Shown piece by piece: positions 9,571-29,747 of a stretch of 32,074 bases of DNA (its first letter is position 1; every line of letters starts with the position of its first letter). The position numbers were made by a program, and so were the translations under genes. This stretch comes from Thermoplasmatota archaeon. GTDB taxonomy: Archaea; Thermoplasmatota; Thermoplasmata; Thermoplasmatales; Thermoplasmataceae. The DNA lies in contig JAMDAM010000018.1 in assembly GCA_023484805.1 (NCBI GenBank), positions 1-32,074 of the forward strand, given 5' to 3'. The notes under the pieces were generated by a model. That model was not told the origin of the DNA and ran no database searches. It was given only the letters and a program-made list of their open reading frames with translations.

Positions 9571-10884
9571 CTTTCGCAAGACAAGGGTCGAAAGCAGACA
9601 GAAAAACCTATAATTTACAGCAGGATGAAGAAGGAGAAAGTTCGTGAAAACATATAAATTCGGGATATATCCCACGGATTCCTAGGCGACCGGCCTGAAC
9701 AGCACGCTTGATCCGTGCCGTGAACTGTACAACGCAATGTTACAGCAGAGGATATACGTCCATAGGATGGGAAAGAGTATCTCTTAATATTCTCGGTAGA
9801 ATGAAATACCGGATATGAAGAGAACCTTTCCTGAATTCAACCATGTACATTCGCAGGTACTGCAGGACGTTGCCCGAAGAGTGGATAAAGCCTTTGATAG
9901 TTTCTTCCGCAGAATCAGAGAGAGAAATAACGGAAAACAGTTAAAGGCAGTGTTTCCACGATTCAAATCCAGAGACAGGTACAGTTCCATCACATACACG
10001 CAGTCGGGATTCAGGATACTGGATAACGGCCATGTGTGGCTCTCCAAGCTAGGGGAAGTGAGGATGTTCATGCACCGATCCGTCATGGGAGATGTCAGGA
10101 CGCTTTCAGTCAAGCGTGATTCCGTGGGAGACTGGTTCATTACATTGACAGTTGAGGCAGATAGTAAACCGGATAAACCAGAAGAAGACGAAACCCTGCA
10201 GGATTCACAATTTCAACCCGTCAAGCCGGTTGGCATAGACATGGAGCTGAAATCCATCATAACCACCAGTGACGGGATGCAGATCGATCCTCCCCGTTTC
10301 CTGGGAAAATCAGAGAAGAAACTCGAGAAGGCGCAGAGGAACCTATTCAGGAAGAATAACGGATCTGGAAAGCGAACGAAGGCGAAGAAAAGGGTCACAA
10401 TAATCGACAGGAAGATAGCTAGGCAGAGGGATGATTTCTCACATAAGATTTCCGGACAGCTTGCCGATGAACACGATCTGATTGCGCTTGAGGACTTGAA
10501 CATAGCAGGAATGGTGAAGAATCACCACATGGCAAAGAGCATAGGAGATGCGTCATGGGGACGCATTGTCCAGTACACAACGTACAAGGCTGAAAGTGCC
10601 GGTGCTGTTGTTCTAATGGTAAATCCCATGCACACGTCACAGAAATGCTCAAAATGCGGAAACATCAAGCATGATCTGAAACTATCAGATCGCATATACC
10701 ACTGCAACTCATGCGGCCTGATCATTGATCGGGACCTGAACGCCGCAATAAATATCCGGAATGCCGGATTGAACGCTGTAGGGAGGGGCACTCCCGAATT
10801 CACGCCCGTGGAGATCGGAGCTCTGCCAATGGCAACTCCGGTCGTTGAAACGGGAAGCCCCTGCGTTAGCTGGGGGAGGATGCC
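9569..10884 (+). mobile_element. Decayed IS200/IS605-family (IS1341-type, TnpB-only) element
   Basis: The element encloses a broken tnpB and no tnpA. Its right end is recognisable: CGGGAAGCCCCTGCGTTAGC followed by TGGGGGAGGATGCC (10851-10884). CCCC (10858-10861) pairs with GGGG (10872-10875) and GC with GC around a GUUA loop, matching the subterminal hairpin and GGGAGGATG tail seen at such ends. A similar end recurs alone at 25520-25556. The left end is less certain: CCCTT (9569-9573) and AAGGG (9583-9587) could form the left hairpin. It lies between the Hsp20 promoter and the meaB stop, 15 nt from the latter. Confidence 0.6.
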
Positions 10885-11068
10885 ACCATTCCCTGCAACT
10901 ACAAACCTGCTTTTCCTGACCTCAGAATTTTCATTGCTGCAGAATAAGGATCTATCTTCTCTCCGGAGAATCTGGCAATTGCATCCTTGCTTTTCAGCAG
11001 TTCCCTTGCTTCAAGGAGATACTGTCTCCTTATCTCGGCCTGAAGGGCCATTTCAACCTCTTTCATGA
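9644..11068 (+). pseudogene. tnpB: TnpB RNA-guided nuclease, N-terminus interrupted by three stop codons
   Basis: TnpB is the RuvC-type nuclease of IS200/IS605 elements. From a GTG at 9644 one frame reads VKTYKFGIYPTDS, then TAG (9683), then a typical region with DPCRELYNAMLQQRIYVHR and GKSIS, then TAA (9785), YSR, TAG (9797), NEIPD and the open frame from the ATG at 9815. All three stops are in the same frame with no indel. The RuvC half is intact: VGIDMEL (Asp), LIALEDLNIAGM (Glu), the CSKCG/CNSCG zinc finger and DRDLNAAINI (Asp). The normal stop is also gone: the frame runs through the element's right end and 170 nt into meaB antisense, adding about 60 unrelated residues. An N-truncated protein from 9815 is possible but should lack the wedge start. 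Confidence 0.85.
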
Positions 11069-11846
11069 ACCTGTCCAGCCTGATATTCGGCCTGCTGCCA
11101 TTGAATTCCCCGTGCTTCATTATCTCTGAAACAAGCTCATCGTATCCTTTCCCTTTGAGGCTATCCAGCCCGATAACCGGCACCTTCCACTCCTTCTGCG
11201 GAGTCATGGCAAGTGAATCCTGTATGTCCTTCATCGCCAAGAATGATCCATCCCTGTCCATCTTGTTGACGACGAATATGTCTCCTATCTCCATTATGCC
11301 GGCCTTGATAGCCTGTATTTCGTCCCCCAATCCTGGTCCAAGCACGACGATCACAGTATCCGCAAGGTCAACGATGTCCAGATCTGCCTGGCCTGCTCCC
11401 ACAGTCTCGATTATTATATAGTCATTCCCGGCTGCATCAAGTATCTTCACGGCGTCCCATGTTGAACGGGATAAACCTCCATTCATTCCACGATTGGCAA
11501 GGCTCCGCATGAATATTCCGTTCTCGGTGAGGGATTCCTGCATACGTATGCGGTTTCCGAGAAGTGACCCTCCTGAAAAGGGGCTCGAAGCATCTACAGC
11601 AATCACGGATACCTTCTTGTTTCCATCAGATAGAATTCTTGCTAGCCTGCCGATCATTGTGCTCTTTCCTATGCCTGGTGGGCCGGTGATACCGATGACA
11701 TGGGCCCTGCCTGTATGATTGTATATCCCCTTTATAACCTCCGAGGACTCGATGACCATTTCATCATCCTCAACGATGGAGATTGCCCTCGCAATGCTTC
11801 TTCTGTCTCCGTTAAGAATCCCATTGATAATGTCTTGGATTTTCAA
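10899..11846 (-). CDS. meaB: MeaB/ArgK-family G-protein chaperone of the B12-dependent mutase
   Basis: P-loop GTPase that gates adenosylcobalamin loading and protects B12-dependent acyl-CoA mutases. The 315 residues contain Walker A GPPGIGKS (55-62), the family block DASSPFSGGSLLGNRIRM (85-102), the switch region ETVGAGQ (147-153) and the guanine-specificity motif NKMD (194-197). The start is TTG at 11846, with GGTG (11856-11853) about 6 nt upstream, overlapping the stop of the mutase small subunit. It is the last gene of the mutase operon, and its 3' end is overlapped antisense by the runaway tnpB frame. Old ArgK 'arginine kinase transport' labels do not apply. Confidence 0.93.
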   Translation of the reverse strand: MKIQDIINGILNGDRRSIARAISIVEDDEMVIESSEVIKGIYNHTGRAHVIGITGPPGIGKSTMIGRLARILSDGNKKVSVIAVDASSPFSGGSLLGNRIRMQESLTENGIFMRSLANRGMNGGLSRSTWDAVKILDAAGNDYIIIETVGAGQADLDIVDLADTVIVVLGPGLGDEIQAIKAGIMEIGDIFVVNKMDRDGSFLAMKDIQDSLAMTPQKEWKVPVIGLDSLKGKGYDELVSEIMKHGEFNGSRPNIRLDRFMKEVEMALQAEIRRQYLLEARELLKSKDAIARFSGEKIDPYSAAMKILRSGKAGL

Positions 11847-11854
11847 GACCGCAC

Positions 11855-12319
11855 CTATTGCATCTTCCTGGATCGGGCCTCAGATGCCCTTGCGGTTATG
11901 TGATCCACAATTGTTGATAACGGGGTTCCCGGACCATAGTTTCCAGTAATCCCAAGCTTTTCAAGCTTTGGCTTGTCCCCGTCAGGGATTGTACCGCCCC
12001 CAACAACTGCTATGTCATCTATCCCGCGCTTCTTCAGAAGTTCAGATATTTTCCTGAAAACCGTCAGGTGTGCGCCGTTCAGGAGGCTGAGAGCTATCAC
12101 GTCCACATCCTCATTTATGGCAGTGTCGACGACTTCCTCCGGCGTTGGTAGAAGACCTGCATAGAGCACTTCCATGCCGGCATCCCTGAACGCCTTCGCA
12201 AGCACAAGCACTCCCCGGTCATGGCCATCTATTCCTGGCTTGGCGAGCAGCACCTTGATAGGCTTGTCCTTAAACAAGGACAGGTTCTTTCCATCCACCA
12301 AATACATTCCTCCCGACAT
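11855..12319 (-). CDS. B12-binding small subunit of an acyl-CoA mutase
   Basis: Stand-alone cobalamin-binding domain that pairs with the large subunit encoded just upstream. The base-off/His-on motif DxHxxG is DGHDRG (Asp31, His33, Gly36), in which the His ligates cobalt. The SLL in IALSLLNGAHL and the GGGTIPDGD loop are the other B12-binding parts of the Rossmann-like fold. The first ATG (12319) overlaps the large-subunit gene by 50 nt. A second ATG (12307) and TTG/GTG codons at 12301/12298 lie near a strong GGGAGG site (12314-12309), so the true start may be one of the latter. A separate small subunit fits the split isobutyryl-CoA mutase or archaeal methylmalonyl-CoA mutase layout. Confidence 0.92.
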   Translation of the reverse strand: MSGGMYLVDGKNLSLFKDKPIKVLLAKPGIDGHDRGVLVLAKAFRDAGMEVLYAGLLPTPEEVVDTAINEDVDVIALSLLNGAHLTVFRKISELLKKRGIDDIAVVGGGTIPDGDKPKLEKLGITGNYGPGTPLSTIVDHITARASEARSRKMQ

Positions 12320-14030
12320 TAGATATCTCTTCCAGAGTAGCGTATGATTCTACTGCTCTTATTATGTATGGCATTGAGTTTTCTTCAGGGTTTCGCAGGG
12401 CGTTCTCCAGTTCCGAAAGTGCTTCCATTACCTTTTTCTCGTCCCTCTCCTGCTTCACGGAAAGCAGTTTGGATAACTGGGACTTCTGGGCCCTCCTGCT
12501 GATTCTCAATATGTTTATTGGCTTTTCATTGCTTTCGGCATACTTGTTTACCCCGACCATCACTTCCTTTCCCTGTTCAATTCTTATCTGCCTGCGATAT
12601 GAAGTGGCAGCTATTTCCTTCTGGATATAGCCAGTCTTGACTGCCTGAAGTATTCCACCCATCTTTTCTATTTCACTGAAATACTTGAACGCTTCCTCTT
12701 CCATTCTGTCGGTAAGCCATTCCAAATAATATGATCCTCCAAGTGGGTCTATGGTATCCGGTATGCCGGTTTCCTCAGCTATAATCTGCTGTGTCCTGAG
12801 AGCAACCTTTACTGCCTGCTCGGAAGGTAACGCCCAGGCCTCATCATACGAGTTTGTGTGAAGGCTTTGTGTTCCGCCAAGCACGGCTGCCATAGCCTCT
12901 ATCGTTGTCCTAACAATATTATTCAGTGGCTGCTGCCAGGTCAGGGTATAGCCTGATGTCTGGGTATGGAACCTGAGATAGAGGCTTCTCTCATTGCGGA
13001 CTCCGTATTTCTCCCTGAGTACCGTGGCCCATATTCTCCTTGCAGCCCTCAACTTGGCTATTTCCTCAAAGAAATTTATGGATGAATTGAAGAAAAAGGA
13101 GAGCCTTGGAGCAAATTCTGCAGGATCCAGGCCAGCATCTATTCCCATGTCAACATAGTGGAACCCATCTGCAAGTGTGAATGCGAGTTCCTGCGCGGCG
13201 CTTGAACCAGCCTCTCTGATATGGTATCCTGAGATGCTGATATAGTTCCATTTTGGCACATTCTTCGTGCAATAGACCATCATGTCTCTTATAAGCCTCA
13301 AATGAGCCTCGGGCGGGTATATCCACTCCTTCTGGGCTATATATTCCTTTAGTATGTCGGCCTGTACCGTTCCGGAAATCCTGTCAAGAGGTACGCCCTG
13401 CTTCTTTGCCACTGCTATGTACATGGCAGTCAGGACAGCGGCTGGAGCGTTGATGGTCATGGATGTGCTCACCTCTCCAAGGTCAATTCCAGAAAGGATA
13501 TCTTCCATATCTCTCAGGGAAGACACATTCACGCCGCATCTTCCAACTTCCCCGTCCGCTCTCTTGTTGTCGCAATCATATCCATAAAGCGTGGGCATGT
13601 CAAAAGCTATGCTTAGGCCGGACTCACCGTGTTCTATAAGATATTTCAGCCTCTTGTTTGTGTCCTCCGGAGTCCCAAACCCAGAAAACATTCTCATGGT
13701 CCAGAGTTTTCCCCTGTACATGTTCGGATATATCCCCCGCGTGAACGGGTATGTTCCGGGTAGTCCAAGATATTTATCCTCAAAATTCTTCCTCAGATCT
13801 TGACTGGTATAGATCTCATCTATCTTTATGCTGGACGAGTTGCTGTATTCCCTATCTTCGTACTTTGTTCTGGAATTCCAGGGTTCCAGCACATCTTTTC
13901 GCCATTTTCCAATCCGATCCCCCTTCTTTCCCGAGGCTTCTCTAAATTCGGACAGTTTATTCTCCCAGTAATTCTCTTTCACTCCGTCCATCATTTCAAT
14001 AGTCCACACTCGAATTAAAATTTTTTCCAA
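12270..14030 (-). CDS. Acyl-CoA mutase large subunit, isobutyryl-CoA mutase-like
   Basis: Substrate-binding TIM-barrel subunit of an adenosylcobalamin-dependent acyl-CoA mutase. Family marks include YPFTRGIYPNMYRGKLWTMR, GLSIAFDMPTLYGYD, ISISGYHIREAG (His270) and FHTQTSGYTLTWQQPLNNIV. It is usually annotated methylmalonyl-CoA mutase, but the two residues that bind the methylmalonyl carboxylate are changed. Tyr89 of the Propionibacterium enzyme is Phe115 here (RMFSGFG), and Arg207 is Gln233 (KEYIAQKEWIYPP). Phe/Gln is the published isobutyryl-CoA mutase pair. I therefore expect isobutyryl-/butyryl-CoA isomerisation, linked perhaps to valine or fatty-acid carbon. The ATG at 14030 overlaps the glycosyltransferase gene by 16 nt; ATGs at 13994/13991 are alternatives. 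Confidence 0.88.
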   Translation of the reverse strand: MEKILIRVWTIEMMDGVKENYWENKLSEFREASGKKGDRIGKWRKDVLEPWNSRTKYEDREYSNSSSIKIDEIYTSQDLRKNFEDKYLGLPGTYPFTRGIYPNMYRGKLWTMRMFSGFGTPEDTNKRLKYLIEHGESGLSIAFDMPTLYGYDCDNKRADGEVGRCGVNVSSLRDMEDILSGIDLGEVSTSMTINAPAAVLTAMYIAVAKKQGVPLDRISGTVQADILKEYIAQKEWIYPPEAHLRLIRDMMVYCTKNVPKWNYISISGYHIREAGSSAAQELAFTLADGFHYVDMGIDAGLDPAEFAPRLSFFFNSSINFFEEIAKLRAARRIWATVLREKYGVRNERSLYLRFHTQTSGYTLTWQQPLNNIVRTTIEAMAAVLGGTQSLHTNSYDEAWALPSEQAVKVALRTQQIIAEETGIPDTIDPLGGSYYLEWLTDRMEEEAFKYFSEIEKMGGILQAVKTGYIQKEIAATSYRRQIRIEQGKEVMVGVNKYAESNEKPINILRISRRAQKSQLSKLLSVKQERDEKKVMEALSELENALRNPEENSMPYIIRAVESYATLEEISNVGRNVFGGWKEPVLV

Positions 14031-14830
14031 TTATGCGTCGGCCTTTTCCCAAAAAGGATACAGCTTAGATAACCGGTAGCTGCAGATATGGAACGGATCA
14101 AATAAAGGGGGGTCATGCCTGTGCCAACAACTTTCTCAGTATTGAGATGTGACCACGATTCCGGATGTTTCCATGCAAGCTGTTTTCTGCCATATCCGTT
14201 CCAAAAAGCCTGTTTTATGACACCGTGCAGTGTGTCACGTGTTCGGTTCATTACTATGCACTGATCGCAGACGGCAATCCTGGCGCCGGATTTGACGCAC
14301 CTGATGTTGAGATCTATGTCTTCAGCGGTGATAAACGACTCGTCAAAACCACCCAGCTTAACAAATAGATCCTTGCTGTATCCAAGATTTGCAGAGGGCG
14401 CTGTTACCTCATAGCCATTGTATATGAGCTCTACCCTGTTCAACGTTCTGAATCTTTCATTGCCCACCTGGAGAACTCTCCCGATAACCATTTCATAACC
14501 AAGGGAAATGAATTTCCGCATGGATTTTATCCACTCCGGATCGGCTATGGCATCCCCGTCCGTGAACGCGACAAAGTCATATCTGGCCTTGCTGACGCCT
14601 ATGTTTCTTCCACCGCCGCGGCTGCACCTTATACTGAAATACCTGATTTCCTTATTTTCACCAGCATATCTCGCCAGTATGTCAGAGGTGCCGTCTGTGC
14701 TCATGGAATCCACAACAACGATCTCTTTCGGCCCTTCCTGCAAAAGGAGGCTATCAAGCAGTTCTGAAATTGAACTCGCGTTGTTGTAAACGGTGATAAC
14801 GATAGATACCCCTGGAGGTTCCGTATTCAT
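14015..14830 (-). CDS. Family 2 glycosyltransferase
   Basis: GT-A fold nucleotide-sugar transferase. The N-terminal strand VSIVITVYNNASSISELLDS, the VVDSMSTDGT turn and the metal/nucleotide motif TDGDAIADPEWI (a DxD) are diagnostic. A hydrophobic segment near the C-terminus (TPLYLIRSISAATGYLSCIL) may hold it to the membrane. A longer frame opens at 14947, but its first 39 residues overlap the zinc-finger gene and are Arg/Lys-rich noise; the ATG at 14830 directly precedes PPGVSIVITVYNN and lies 7 nt after the previous stop. The acceptor sugar is unknown; surface or lipid glycosylation is likely. Its place inside a B12-mutase operon is unexpected. Confidence 0.88.
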   Translation of the reverse strand: MNTEPPGVSIVITVYNNASSISELLDSLLLQEGPKEIVVVDSMSTDGTSDILARYAGENKEIRYFSIRCSRGGGRNIGVSKARYDFVAFTDGDAIADPEWIKSMRKFISLGYEMVIGRVLQVGNERFRTLNRVELIYNGYEVTAPSANLGYSKDLFVKLGGFDESFITAEDIDLNIRCVKSGARIAVCDQCIVMNRTRDTLHGVIKQAFWNGYGRKQLAWKHPESWSHLNTEKVVGTGMTPLYLIRSISAATGYLSCILFGKRPTHNWKKF

Positions 14831-14837
14831 ACGGTGT

Positions 14838-15029
14838 TCAGACCCAGTCCATTCTCTTGATTTCCCTCTCCTTTTTCGTGTTTCTCTTGTATTCCTTGTA
14901 ATGTTCCTTGCACAGGTGTACCTTTGTTTTCTTCTCCTTGAGTTCAAACACCTTGGATGCCAGATCCGCTTCTACCGTCTGAAAACTCTCCTTATCACAG
15001 CCAACCACGTCACATATCTTTTCTTTCAT
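14838..15029 (-). CDS. Small zinc-finger-like protein
   Basis: Unrecognised 63-residue basic protein. Likely zinc ligands are Cys6 and Cys11 (ICDVVGCDK) and Cys40 with His43 (HLCKEHYKEY), giving C-x4-C ... C-x2-H, a treble-clef-like pattern. The C-terminal third is Lys/Arg/Glu-rich and helical. A TATA box (TTTATAC, 15059-15052) is centred 26 nt upstream of the ATG, so it appears to be the leaderless first gene of the operon that continues into the glycosyltransferase, mutase and MeaB genes. It could be a nucleic-acid-binding regulator, but nothing shows a target. Confidence 0.7.
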   Translation of the reverse strand: MKEKICDVVGCDKESFQTVEADLASKVFELKEKKTKVHLCKEHYKEYKRNTKKEREIKRMDWV

Positions 15030-15049
15030 ATCTGGGAATAATTGTCAGT

Positions 15050-15059
15050 AAGTATAAAG
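15050..15059 (-). promoter_or_regulatory. TATA box heading the mutase operon
   Basis: Minus-strand TCTTTATACT is centred 26 nt before the ATG at 15029. No comparable box precedes the next four minus-strand genes, which are spaced by 8 nt or less or overlap. Confidence 0.5.
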
Positions 15060-15113
15060 ATTGTCTATGCAAGCCTGTGCAAAAGCTTAATGTTTTATTG
15101 CCATGACCAAAAT

Positions 15114-15764
15114 ATGTTAGTATCCCCTTCAATAATATCGGCAAAGCTGTATGATCTTCAGGGTGAGATAGGTCAATGCGAGGATGCAGGGGCATCTTCC
15201 TTTCATCTGGACGTGATGGATGGGCACTTTGTCCCGAACCTTACCATTGGGCCTGATTTTGTGAAAGCAGTAAAACACTCTTCCCATGTTCCACTGGAGA
15301 CGCACCTTATGATAGAGAGGCCTGACAAATACTACAGATCCTTCGTTGAAGCCGGATCGGATGTGCTGATGGTTCATTATGAGTCTCCCATCGATCTGGG
15401 TACATTATTTCACAAGATGGATCAGGAGGGGATCAGGAGGGGTCTGGTTGTGAATCCTGAAACAAATATCAGCGAGGTTGAAGACCTGATTCCGGGGTGT
15501 CACTCGCTTCTGATAATGTCTGTTCATCCCGGGTTCTCTGGCCAGAAATTCATAACGGATTCCCTAAGGAAGATAAGGGAGGCAAGAAAATTCATTGATT
15601 CTAACGCTCCAGACACGCTGCTTGAGATCGATGGAGGAATAAATCTGGAGACAGGCAAACTGTGCGCAGAAGCCGGGGTTGATGTACTGATATCAGCTTC
15701 GTACATCTTTGGGAATGACATCGGGAAATCCATAGGATACCTGAAGGCGCTTGGAAAGCACTAA
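15114..15764 (+). CDS. rpe: Ribulose-phosphate 3-epimerase
   Basis: Interconverts ribulose 5-phosphate and xylulose 5-phosphate in the non-oxidative pentose phosphate pathway. The TIM-barrel metal site is complete: SPSIISAKL at the start, FHLDVMDGHFVPNLTIGP (His and Asp ligands), THLMIERP (His), SVHPGFSGQKF and LEIDGGINLETG (Asp and the phosphate loop). The frame is open from 15042, but the family starts at MLVSPSIISA, so the ATG at 15114 is chosen. The ~216-residue product has the normal length. It converges with the oxidoreductase gene and overlaps its stop by 4 nt. Confidence 0.95.
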   Translation: MLVSPSIISAKLYDLQGEIGQCEDAGASSFHLDVMDGHFVPNLTIGPDFVKAVKHSSHVPLETHLMIERPDKYYRSFVEAGSDVLMVHYESPIDLGTLFHKMDQEGIRRGLVVNPETNISEVEDLIPGCHSLLIMSVHPGFSGQKFITDSLRKIREARKFIDSNAPDTLLEIDGGINLETGKLCAEAGVDVLISASYIFGNDIGKSIGYLKALGKH

Positions 15765-26961: not shown

Positions 26962-28455
26962 ATGAGAGCACTTGTCAGCGTCAGTGATAAATCAGGGCTG
27001 GTCGAGTTCATAGGGGAATGCGGAAGTTCCATAAGCGAAATATATGCCACAGGCAGCACGGGAGACCATCTGAGGAAGAACGGCATCAAGGCAAGGAGCA
27101 CTTCAGAGCTGACCGGATTCGACGAACTTCTTGGAGGAAGGGTGAAAACTCTTCATCCAAAAATCTTTGCAGGCATACTTGCCGATGGCGAAGCTCGGTC
27201 GAGGAAGGACAGGGATTACCCTGACTTCGACATGGTCATCTGTAACTTCTATCCATTCAGTCAGGTCTCCGGCGGAAATAACATCGAGGCAATGACAGAA
27301 AACATTGACATTGGTGGTGTCTCCCTCGTCAGGGCAGCGGCAAAAAACTACCGGAATGTCATAGTACTCTCGGATCCATCTGATTACGTGGTAGTTGCAG
27401 ATTCACTGAGAAAAGAAGAAAAAGTGTCGGAAAATATCAGGAAAGAACTAGCCCTGAGATCTTTCCAGCGGGTGTCAGATTATGACATCCTGATCTACAA
27501 CTCACTGTTCAGGGTTATGGACGGAGGAATTTCCCAGAGCCTGCTCATCAGCGGGATCAATGGGGAGAAGCTTAGATACGGGGAAAATCCGGACCAGCGG
27601 GGGTATCTGTACTCAGACGGATCTGTATTTGGAGTTGCAAACAGCAGAAAATTGGGCGGGAAAGAACTATCATACAATAACCTCATGGATTCGGATTCAG
27701 CCTTTGCTGCCGTCATGGAATTCGAGAAGCCGGCCTGCGTAATAGTGAAGCATAATACCCCTTGCGGCGCCGCAGTCGGCAAAGATCTTCTGGAAGCATA
27801 TATGAAAGCCCTGGATACAGATAGGGAGTCTGCATATGGATCTGTCATAGCATTCAACAGGGAGGTCGATGAAGAAACAGCTTCCGCTCTTTCACAACTG
27901 TTTGTGGAAGTGCTGGTTGCACCTTCATACGGTGAGAAGGCGCTTGATATAATTAAGAAAAAGAAAAACCTGAGAATACTGGAAATCAAGCCAGAGCAAG
28001 GCAGAGGCGTGAGGGTCAGGTCAATATCCGGGGGTTATCTTCTCCAGGATGAGCTGACTTCACAATTCGGGAAACTGGAATTGAAGACTGTAAAACATGC
28101 CACTCCGGAACAGATGGAGGACCTTGATTTTGCCTGGAAGGTGGTAACACACTGCAGGAGCAATGCGATAGTCCTGGCCAGGAACGGTGCCACGGTTGCC
28201 ATTGGCGCGGGCCAGACATCCAGGGTGGAAGCACTGAGGATTGCCATAGCCAAGGGCGGAAAGAAATGCGAGAACTCTGTGCTTGCTTCCGATGCCTTCT
28301 TCCCATTCTCAGATAGCGTTGAACTCGCCGGTGAAAACGGAATCGCAGCAATAATACAGCCAGGCGGATCCATAAGGGACGGTGAAGTTGTGACCATGGC
28401 GGAACAGAAAGGTATCCCAATGTATTTTACTGGAAAAAGGGTATTTCTCCACTGA
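26962..28455 (+). CDS. purH: Bifunctional AICAR transformylase/IMP cyclohydrolase
   Basis: Catalyses the last two steps of IMP synthesis: formyl transfer to AICAR from 10-formyl-tetrahydrofolate and ring closure. The N-terminal cyclohydrolase domain has ALVSVSDKSGL and LGGRVKTLHPKIFAGIL. The transformylase domain has RYGENPDQRGY, the catalytic KHNTPCGAA and IGAGQTSRVEALRIA, ending in PGGSIRDGEV. The 497 residues make a full-length bacterial-type enzyme. Many archaea use PurP and PurO instead, so a fused PurH implies folate-type C1 carriers and probable ancient transfer from bacteria. The stop is 2 bp from the convergent beta-helix gene. Confidence 0.96.
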   Translation: MRALVSVSDKSGLVEFIGECGSSISEIYATGSTGDHLRKNGIKARSTSELTGFDELLGGRVKTLHPKIFAGILADGEARSRKDRDYPDFDMVICNFYPFSQVSGGNNIEAMTENIDIGGVSLVRAAAKNYRNVIVLSDPSDYVVVADSLRKEEKVSENIRKELALRSFQRVSDYDILIYNSLFRVMDGGISQSLLISGINGEKLRYGENPDQRGYLYSDGSVFGVANSRKLGGKELSYNNLMDSDSAFAAVMEFEKPACVIVKHNTPCGAAVGKDLLEAYMKALDTDRESAYGSVIAFNREVDEETASALSQLFVEVLVAPSYGEKALDIIKKKKNLRILEIKPEQGRGVRVRSISGGYLLQDELTSQFGKLELKTVKHATPEQMEDLDFAWKVVTHCRSNAIVLARNGATVAIGAGQTSRVEALRIAIAKGGKKCENSVLASDAFFPFSDSVELAGENGIAAIIQPGGSIRDGEVVTMAEQKGIPMYFTGKRVFLH

Positions 28456-28457
28456 TT

Positions 28458-29669
28458 CTAGAATGGGAACTCAGGGAGCTTCTCGACCTTCTTTCCAATA
28501 TCTTCAATTTTCATTCCGTTCATGCTTCTTATCCAGTGCCTGTAAAGGCACTTCCCTTTTATTGATGAATTTTTCCACATAGTAATTTCGTCGGCATAGA
28601 CGTTCTTTGCTGAGGTATCGTTCTTCATATGGAGTATGATTGCATAGACGTCCTCTGCAGTCGCACCTCTTGAAAAGATCACCTGGTCGCCATATATCGG
28701 TCCCTTGACAGAGCAGTTCCTTCCGAGCATGATCATGTTCGCCTTCGCTCCTTTTATGGTTTGCAGAACCTTGCCCACCTCGATATTCATCCTGCACTGC
28801 AGCTTTCTGGCACGAATTTCGCCTGCCGCCTCAAGCGTATTGCATTCTATGTCACCGTCGACACTGACAAGCTCACCTGCCCTGATGTCTCCGGTAGCTG
28901 ATATATTGCCGGAAGATTTGATGGAATCTGCCACTATTATCTCATTCGCGATCATGTCTGAACATTCCAGCGACCTTCCCGTCTTTAGTTCGTCCACTTC
29001 AACCAATCCCCTGGCAAGCATATTTCCTCCGATATTCATTGTGTCGCATTTCACACTGTTGAATTCGGCATTCTTTCCGGTTGTGATAAGTGAGCCATCC
29101 ATATGCCCGGTGCTTTCCAGGTTCCCGTCCACGCTTGCGGAGTCAAAAGTTCCTCCCGCAATCCTTGCACTAATTCCGATCCTCAGGTTCCTGCAGTCGA
29201 CGTGATCCAATTCGACCGAGTCTGCCTGTATGTCATCGCACTTGAGATCGCTACCCTTGATCATTCCTCCAACAGAGACAGTCCTGCACTCCATCCTATT
29301 GTCAAATATGATGTCATTTCCAGCTATGGCTTTCTCACAGGATATTGAACCCGCTTCAACTGTTCTGTCAGCGTCCAGGGTCCTCGCTTTTATGTTCCCC
29401 TTAACGGAAAGTGTGCTCCTGGATGCAGTTATTCCATCCATTGCCTCAAGGTTCCCTGCCACATCCAGGTCCGCCTTTAATGTGGCTTTGTGGCAGACTA
29501 TGCTTCCCGGAACCTGGCTCCTGGCTTCAACCAGTAGATCGCCCTTTACGGTGAGGGACATAACAGACGGTGATATTTTCCCACCCTTGAGATAGAGATT
29601 TCCCTCTACGATCTGCTTCTCATAGACCTCTCCGTTCGAGAGTATAATGTCGCCTGCTTGCCTGAACAT
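28458..29669 (-). CDS. Beta-helix (bactofilin-like, polymer-forming) protein with Cys ladder
   Basis: The 403 residues consist almost entirely of short V-x-G-[DN]-[IL] strand-turn units of about 16-17 residues, for example LTVKGDLLVEA, LSVKGNIKAR, SVDGNLEST and VSVDGDIECN. This predicts one long right-handed beta-helix, as in bactofilins and other polymer-forming (DUF583-like) proteins, though much longer. Eleven cysteines (59, 111, 128, 144, 159, 208, 236, 276, 292, 319, 374) recur, often 15-17 or about 50 residues apart, so several should stack. There is no signal peptide or membrane helix; the C-terminal tail (about 378-403) is charged. A role as an internal scaffold in a wall-less cell is inference. 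Confidence 0.7.
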   Translation of the reverse strand: MFRQAGDIILSNGEVYEKQIVEGNLYLKGGKISPSVMSLTVKGDLLVEARSQVPGSIVCHKATLKADLDVAGNLEAMDGITASRSTLSVKGNIKARTLDADRTVEAGSISCEKAIAGNDIIFDNRMECRTVSVGGMIKGSDLKCDDIQADSVELDHVDCRNLRIGISARIAGGTFDSASVDGNLESTGHMDGSLITTGKNAEFNSVKCDTMNIGGNMLARGLVEVDELKTGRSLECSDMIANEIIVADSIKSSGNISATGDIRAGELVSVDGDIECNTLEAAGEIRARKLQCRMNIEVGKVLQTIKGAKANMIMLGRNCSVKGPIYGDQVIFSRGATAEDVYAIILHMKNDTSAKNVYADEITMWKNSSIKGKCLYRHWIRSMNGMKIEDIGKKVEKLPEFPF

Positions 29670-29726: not shown

Positions 29727-29747
29727 CGCATGACTGCATGTCAATTC

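Follow-up and report, generated by a model that had tools for sequence, protein, structure and literature searches.

An elongated bactofilin variant with a probable cysteine-rich inner corner in a genus of the Thermoplasmatales

The locus described here raises the question of what kind of protein carries a recurring series of cysteines along what looks like a single long beta-helix, and whether those cysteines do more than hold the fold together. The window, meaning the whole stretch of DNA analyzed (32,074 nucleotides), contains the gene as a real open reading frame with a 403-residue product.

28458..29669, minus strand: elongated bactofilin-family gene, 403 codons plus stop, supported by the ORF, Pfam and orthologs

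The gene adjoins purH (26962-28455) tail to tail, and a divergent aldo/keto-reductase-like ORF begins upstream at 29730; both names are what we take these neighbors to be from their sequences. In two related genomes (G004 and G006) the ortholog still lies tail to tail beside purH and an S-adenosylmethionine-synthetase-like gene, and a viral origin was set aside because this position is kept. Upstream of the ortholog in G004 (L040, approximately 10180-15755), in the place taken in the window by the aldo/keto reductase side, there are ORFs that we presume to be transposase-like.

Assignment to the bactofilin family comes first from Pfam. The comparison with bactofilin profiles proposed in the original prediction places the protein inside the family (PF04519; score 40.3 bits, cut-off 27.9, E 3.9e-10), and two orthologs also score above the cut-off (L003, 28.9 bits; L004, 30.1), so that all three proteins of this long form (A-type) that were scanned pass; single stretches scored in six-frame translation fall below it (21.1 bits in G000). 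At E<=1 the window protein had Pfam matches to Bactofilin and FapA alone: the FapA beta solenoid model (PF03961) missed its cut-off (22.7 vs. 31 bits), and the Toastrack models (DUF2154/DUF4097/DUF2807) gave no match. An NCBIfam search found nothing near any cut-off, and PDB sequence searches with the protein and with its ortholog profile A1 yielded no bactofilin, just a weak TamB match. Bactofilin structures are likewise missing from the Foldseek results discussed below; their absence from these searches does not count against the family assignment.

The predicted architecture differs from that of a standard member. Bactofilins are described in PMC12364344 as a core of about 100 residues with variable tails on both sides, whereas here a continuous solenoid is predicted across most of the 403 residues, with strands from residue 8. 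Because it is the architecture that fails and not the homology, we regard the protein as a family variant rather than a typical member. The description of it as longer than ordinary bactofilins stands against its relatives of ~215 and ~300 aa in the order, but not against other Thermoplasmatota frames with Bactofilin matches (413, 417, 497 and up to 2140 aa). Open frames of ~2000-2140 aa with Bactofilin-profile matches were seen at L051 and other places on one contig (G255:C1), all in one genome.

The N-terminus resembles the bactofilin membrane-targeting peptide in part.

29658..29669, minus strand: N-terminal MFRQ, partly resembling the membrane-targeting peptide of bactofilins, from the ortholog alignment

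All four orthologs start with MFRQ or MFKQ (MFKQ in the most distant), and share with the consensus F2 and one basic residue only; BacA begins MFSKQAKS, and the membrane-targeting consensus is MFSKKKK (PMC12448750). The maximum 19-residue hydropathy is 0.94, leaving no hydrophobic stretch fit for a transmembrane helix or signal peptide.

An AlphaFold2 model built from a two-sequence input has strands nearly throughout residues 8-332 (pTM 0.65). Ten-residue blocks over residues 21-180 have pLDDT values of 80-97, compared to 37-77 over approximately 190-403, and the C-terminal 219 residues folded alone gave a poor model (mean pLDDT 54). A continuous beta-helix is predicted with confidence for roughly residues 20-180, and the prediction is weak after about 190. 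Helices modeled at 338-350 and 370-382 are probably wrong, since the repeats of a shorter relative's profile (C-type, see below) align up to residue 373 and the fragment model does not reproduce these helices.

28461..28508, minus strand: conserved C-terminal tail, residues 388-403, from the ortholog alignment; ~388-395 forms a short helix in both models, at low confidence

Foldseek against the PDB returned nothing at E<=0.001 for the model. A structural second look (VIA) retrieved mostly long beta-helices, including tapirin (6n2c; Z 15.9, 2.9 Å) and HMW1 (2odl; Z 14.0, 3.2 Å), both of which we take to be right-handed; the bactofilin fold is itself a right-handed, three-sided beta-helix. Its top row was 2pig, with Z 19.1 at 11.9 Å, and hexapeptide transferases rank alongside at 11-12 Å or more. 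These results bear on the alternative that the protein merely resembles a bactofilin and is an enzyme or surface adhesin with a beta-helix fold: the weak top Foldseek matches are indeed hexapeptide-helix acyl/acetyltransferases and adhesin or tapirin beta-helices. We consider this highly improbable, given the rmsd of the hexapeptide matches, the Bactofilin scores of all the A-type proteins scanned, and a sequence in which nothing could serve as a transmembrane segment or signal peptide.

Two families of shorter bactofilins in the order help to place the long protein. B-type proteins have 275-313 aa and a SHOCT-like N-terminus (profile A4, 12 rows); C-type proteins have 213-215 aa (profile A5, 9 rows). 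Searched against the PDB, the C-type profile picks up the bactofilins 6ria from Thermus (E 0.0048) and 2n3d, which is BacA (E 0.42), although its best match is a tail fibre protein (E 3.1e-4). Both profiles align to the window protein, the B-type one over three successive segments.

29214..29549, minus strand: segment 1, residues 41-152, matching the B-type (~300 aa) bactofilin profile A4
28896..29204, minus strand: segment 2, residues 156-258, matching B-type profile A4
28578..28940, minus strand: segment 3, residues 244-364, matching B-type profile A4
28551..29057, minus strand: residues 205-373, hhalign alignment to C-type bactofilins (213-215 aa) from related families (probability 95.6, E 1.3e-8)

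Residues 130-251 also align with the B-type profile (probability 90.3), and the two halves of the protein are alike (29% over ~82 residues, E 2.5e-4). Three successive A4-matching segments together with the similar halves suggest growth by internal duplication; the protein apparently elongated in this way from an ancestor like the order's shorter bactofilins. Taken together, the Pfam matches of the protein and its orthologs, the AlphaFold2 model and, for the relatives, the match of the C-type profile to a known bactofilin support the original reading of a bactofilin-like beta-helix, for which a scaffold role would be expected and a cytoskeletal one is plausible by family membership.

Full-length orthologs were found only within the genus, in all four of the genomes examined for it; identity to the window protein is 92% in G005, 74% in G004 and 53% in G006. 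Outside the genus, 113 genomes of the order were searched and 16 of them have partial matches at E<=0.001; a close relative is present in the public Thermoplasmata MAG DX4.bin16. Profile A4 matches 49 and profile A5 47 of the order's 117 genomes, some of them incomplete; within the window's genus, neither profile matches anything but the long gene in any of the four genomes. Members of the order lack a cell wall, and the protein had been put forward as a scaffold for wall-less cells. A general role of that kind is not supported, because a bactofilin is detectable in less than half of the genomes of the order. Across the phylum, PF04519 has matches in 119 of 389 genomes, 93 of them above the cut-off. 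By far the strongest Pfam match among those listed for the phylum (E 1.7e-23) is a 127-134 aa bactofilin starting MFQSDNK in G385 (L050), possibly acquired from bacteria.

The cysteines themselves number 11 (residues 59, 111, 128, 144, 159, 208, 236, 276, 292, 319 and 374), as originally counted and in the contexts originally quoted. They are enriched relative to the 28 other ORFs of the window, some of which are possibly overlong (11/403 residues, 2.7%, vs. 75/9130, 0.82%; p=6e-4). Successive gaps are 52, 17, 16, 15, 49, 28, 40, 16, 27 and 55 residues. A spacing of 15-17 residues or multiples of it is therefore partly right: four of the ten gaps fit directly, and two more, 52 and 49, come close to 3 x 16.5, but 28, 40, 27 and 55 are poor fits to any multiple. 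Phase tests over periods of 14-19 were not significant (p=0.07), nor were those with draws limited to hydrophobic or hydrophobic-x-X positions (p 0.07-0.08), and a global periodicity of the 11 cysteines was rejected on the former value. The irregular gaps likely come from unequal coils around 208-236 and 236-276, judged by eye. One run falls in the confident part of the model.

29193..29339, minus strand: Cys111, 128, 144 and 159, probably on consecutive coils (gaps 17, 16, 15)

Context proved more telling than distance. The cysteines were said to sit in similar strand-end contexts, and nine of the 11 have V, I, L, M or F at position -2 (p=4e-4), the remaining two being exceptions. Position -1 is polar in 10 of 11, and +3 is hydrophobic or Ala in eight (six hydrophobic, two Ala). 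Because residues alternate in the hydrophobic-x-Cys context, we infer that the cysteines face inward where strands end. At the level of sequence it is this context, rather than the spacing, that is the firm result.

Conservation in orthologs, which the original prediction had named as a critical test, points the same way: 10 of the 11 cysteines are invariant across the four orthologs, down to 53% identity; for the protein as a whole the figure is 180 of 403 positions (p=0.002, cysteines versus all others). The exception, Cys128, is Gly in G006, which instead has a cysteine at 298 in the same context. Context and conservation support an inward cysteine ladder. Compared with Ala, Gly or Ser occupying the equivalent slot, cysteines are not significantly more conserved (invariant 10/11 vs. 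9/15, p=0.09), although the somewhat higher value would allow them a function besides packing.

We then counted residues in the slot defined as hydrophobic-x-@-x-x-hydrophobic, using three A-, nine B- and six C-type proteins chosen from 4, 12 and 9 to limit near-duplicates. Cysteine is enriched there 8.9x in A-type, 9.8x in B-type and 6.9x in C-type proteins, and Ala 3.6x, 5.1x and 4.7x, respectively; the A-type figure for cysteine is circular, because the pattern was drawn from the window protein's own cysteines, and the B- and C-type figures, coming from homologous families, are not wholly independent. Neither residue is enriched in 17 other proteins of the window (Cys 0.5x, Ala 1.0x). For 27 bactofilins from outside the order (28 less the giant frame L051) the slot value for cysteine is 1.2x, and Gly, Asn and Ala are favored. 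Total cysteine content is 2.73% in A-type, 1.61% in B-type and 2.29% in C-type proteins, and 1.13% outside the order. The hydrophobic-x-Cys context is common to the order's shorter relatives and absent in the phylum's other bactofilins examined. Within the B-type alignment, columns with cysteine have Ser, Thr, Ala, Gly or Val in other members; in the C-type set, four cysteine columns are invariant across 9/9 relatives. L052 (G429), a SHOCT-like bactofilin belonging to a different family of the class, has cysteines at 98, 115, 132, 149 and 166, a constant step of 17 residues; their context, SG[SA]C[DE], is unlike that of the window protein. This series, the four-cysteine run and the conservation in orthologs suggest that cysteine has been repeatedly chosen for such corners.

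What the thiols do there can be read in two ways. They could form a functional array in which stacked cysteines bind soft metal ions or form inter-coil disulfides and thereby switch the stiffness or assembly of the scaffold in response to redox state or metal load. The enrichment and invariance of the cysteines, the probable adjacency of the 111-128-144-159 coils and the four invariant C-type columns are all compatible with such an array, which we nevertheless judge unlikely: related columns hold Ser, Thr, Ala, Gly or Val, the window protein contains no CxxC, the positions point inward, and the protein is presumably cytoplasmic. Disulfides are not expected by default in a cytoplasmic protein. 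The original suggestion of metal binding, disulfides or control of polymerization found no positive evidence, the replacements in relatives, the missing CxxC and the p value of 0.09 weighing against it. Generalized to Thermoplasmata bactofilins, a thiol stack at the inner corner that binds metal or changes redox state, and so switches scaffold assembly in wall-less cells, seems very unlikely. We keep a redox or metal switch as a minor alternative because the data do not tell packing from metal or redox function.

The neighborhoods of the B-type genes introduce a different possibility. In all nine B-type loci examined, the flanks encode a winged-HTH protein of 132-156 aa whose helical tail is SHOCT-like; its gene is in most cases adjacent to the bactofilin gene and in L089 lies about 2 kb away.

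L023:2028-2435: winged-HTH gene beside a B-type bactofilin
L011:2024-2422: winged-HTH gene beside a B-type bactofilin
L082:7726-8172: winged-HTH gene beside a B-type bactofilin
L083:8920-9327: winged-HTH gene beside a B-type bactofilin
L085, L086, L088, L089 and L090: further B-type loci with the winged-HTH protein

No such protein was found in the flanks examined of three C-type and two A-type loci. Given the shared SHOCT-like tail, the regulator and the scaffold could bind each other, and their pairing suggests a regulatory connection for some archaeal bactofilins; in the open-licence literature we found no paper combining bactofilin and SHOCT. By extension, the window protein might be a Toastrack-like signaling platform beneath the membrane, forming no filament, with the flat surfaces of its long solenoid docking partner proteins. 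An idea of this kind has been proposed for SHOCT-Toastrack proteins with HTH partners (PMC11237479), and besides the HTH genes it can draw on the SHOCT-like N-terminus of B-type proteins (L023; E 4.4e-4, below the Pfam cut-off) and on a weak DUF2807 match in one C-type relative (E 0.043, also below cut-off). For the window protein we find it rather doubtful. The A-type gene has neither a SHOCT N-terminus nor an HTH neighbor, the HTH profile finds only partial and weak matches in the genus among those listed (best E 5.3e-9, positions 5-85 of 136), and Bactofilin and FapA are the only Pfam matches of the window protein at E<=1.

We therefore consider it fairly probable that the gene encodes a cytoplasmic, elongated bactofilin scaffold near the membrane, with cysteines that act as reduced core-packing residues. 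The protein would form one beta-solenoid of roughly 22 coils (its length divided by ~16.4 residues), perhaps 10 nm long, and would self-associate or dock partners at the inner face of the membrane independently of nucleotide; bactofilins polymerize without nucleotide into non-polar assemblies. The N-terminal Met-Phe-Arg/Lys may contribute to holding it there; counting against this, the membrane-peptide candidate abuts the first strand, with no flexible tail. Most cysteines would point inward at strand ends, in a small-residue slot filled by Ala, Ser or Gly in other coils, where as reduced thiols they would pack the core and stabilize the stack of coils. The C-terminal helix (~388-395) might cap one end of the solenoid and could block filament growth, in which case dimers or short rods would be favored over long filaments; for CcmA, too, a C-terminal helix that caps the domain has been modeled (PMC9507126).

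This is a real, conserved and elongated bactofilin variant with what is probably a cysteine-rich inner corner. Specific to one genus and built of roughly three segments, it offers a test case for buried cysteines in a self-assembling beta-helix. The archaeal bactofilins we found in print, within the open-licence literature, are the haloarchaeal halofilins; nothing relevant was found there on Thermoplasma and bactofilin together, and by title none of the papers listed for bactofilin, cysteine and disulfide concerned a cysteine ladder.

Compared to the characterized bactofilins (PF04519), C. crescentus BacA (2n3d) and T. thermophilus TtBac (6ria), the window protein shares the Pfam profile, the predicted beta-helix, the lack of a membrane helix and an N-terminal M-F plus basic residue, but it is some four times as long as the core domain, lacks long flexible tails and has repeated cysteines in inward slots. 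Halofilins of Haloferax volcanii, which citing papers describe as archaeal bactofilin homologs with a part in cell shape, are fellow archaeal members of the family. Toastrack/SHOCT proteins of PSP-linked systems (PMC11237479) share the beta-helix, and their SHOCT-like helices and HTH partner recur in the B-type relatives; the window protein itself differs from them in having no SHOCT part, HTH neighbor or Toastrack Pfam match. A parallel to the cysteines is in the beta-helix of the fucoidan lyase FdlA, where PMC9410043 describes an interior ladder of five cysteines as stabilizing. There too cysteines recur at one junction of successive coils, with burial and a stabilizing role described; FdlA differs in being an enzyme and not a bactofilin, with larger coils and cysteines mostly 19-24 residues apart.
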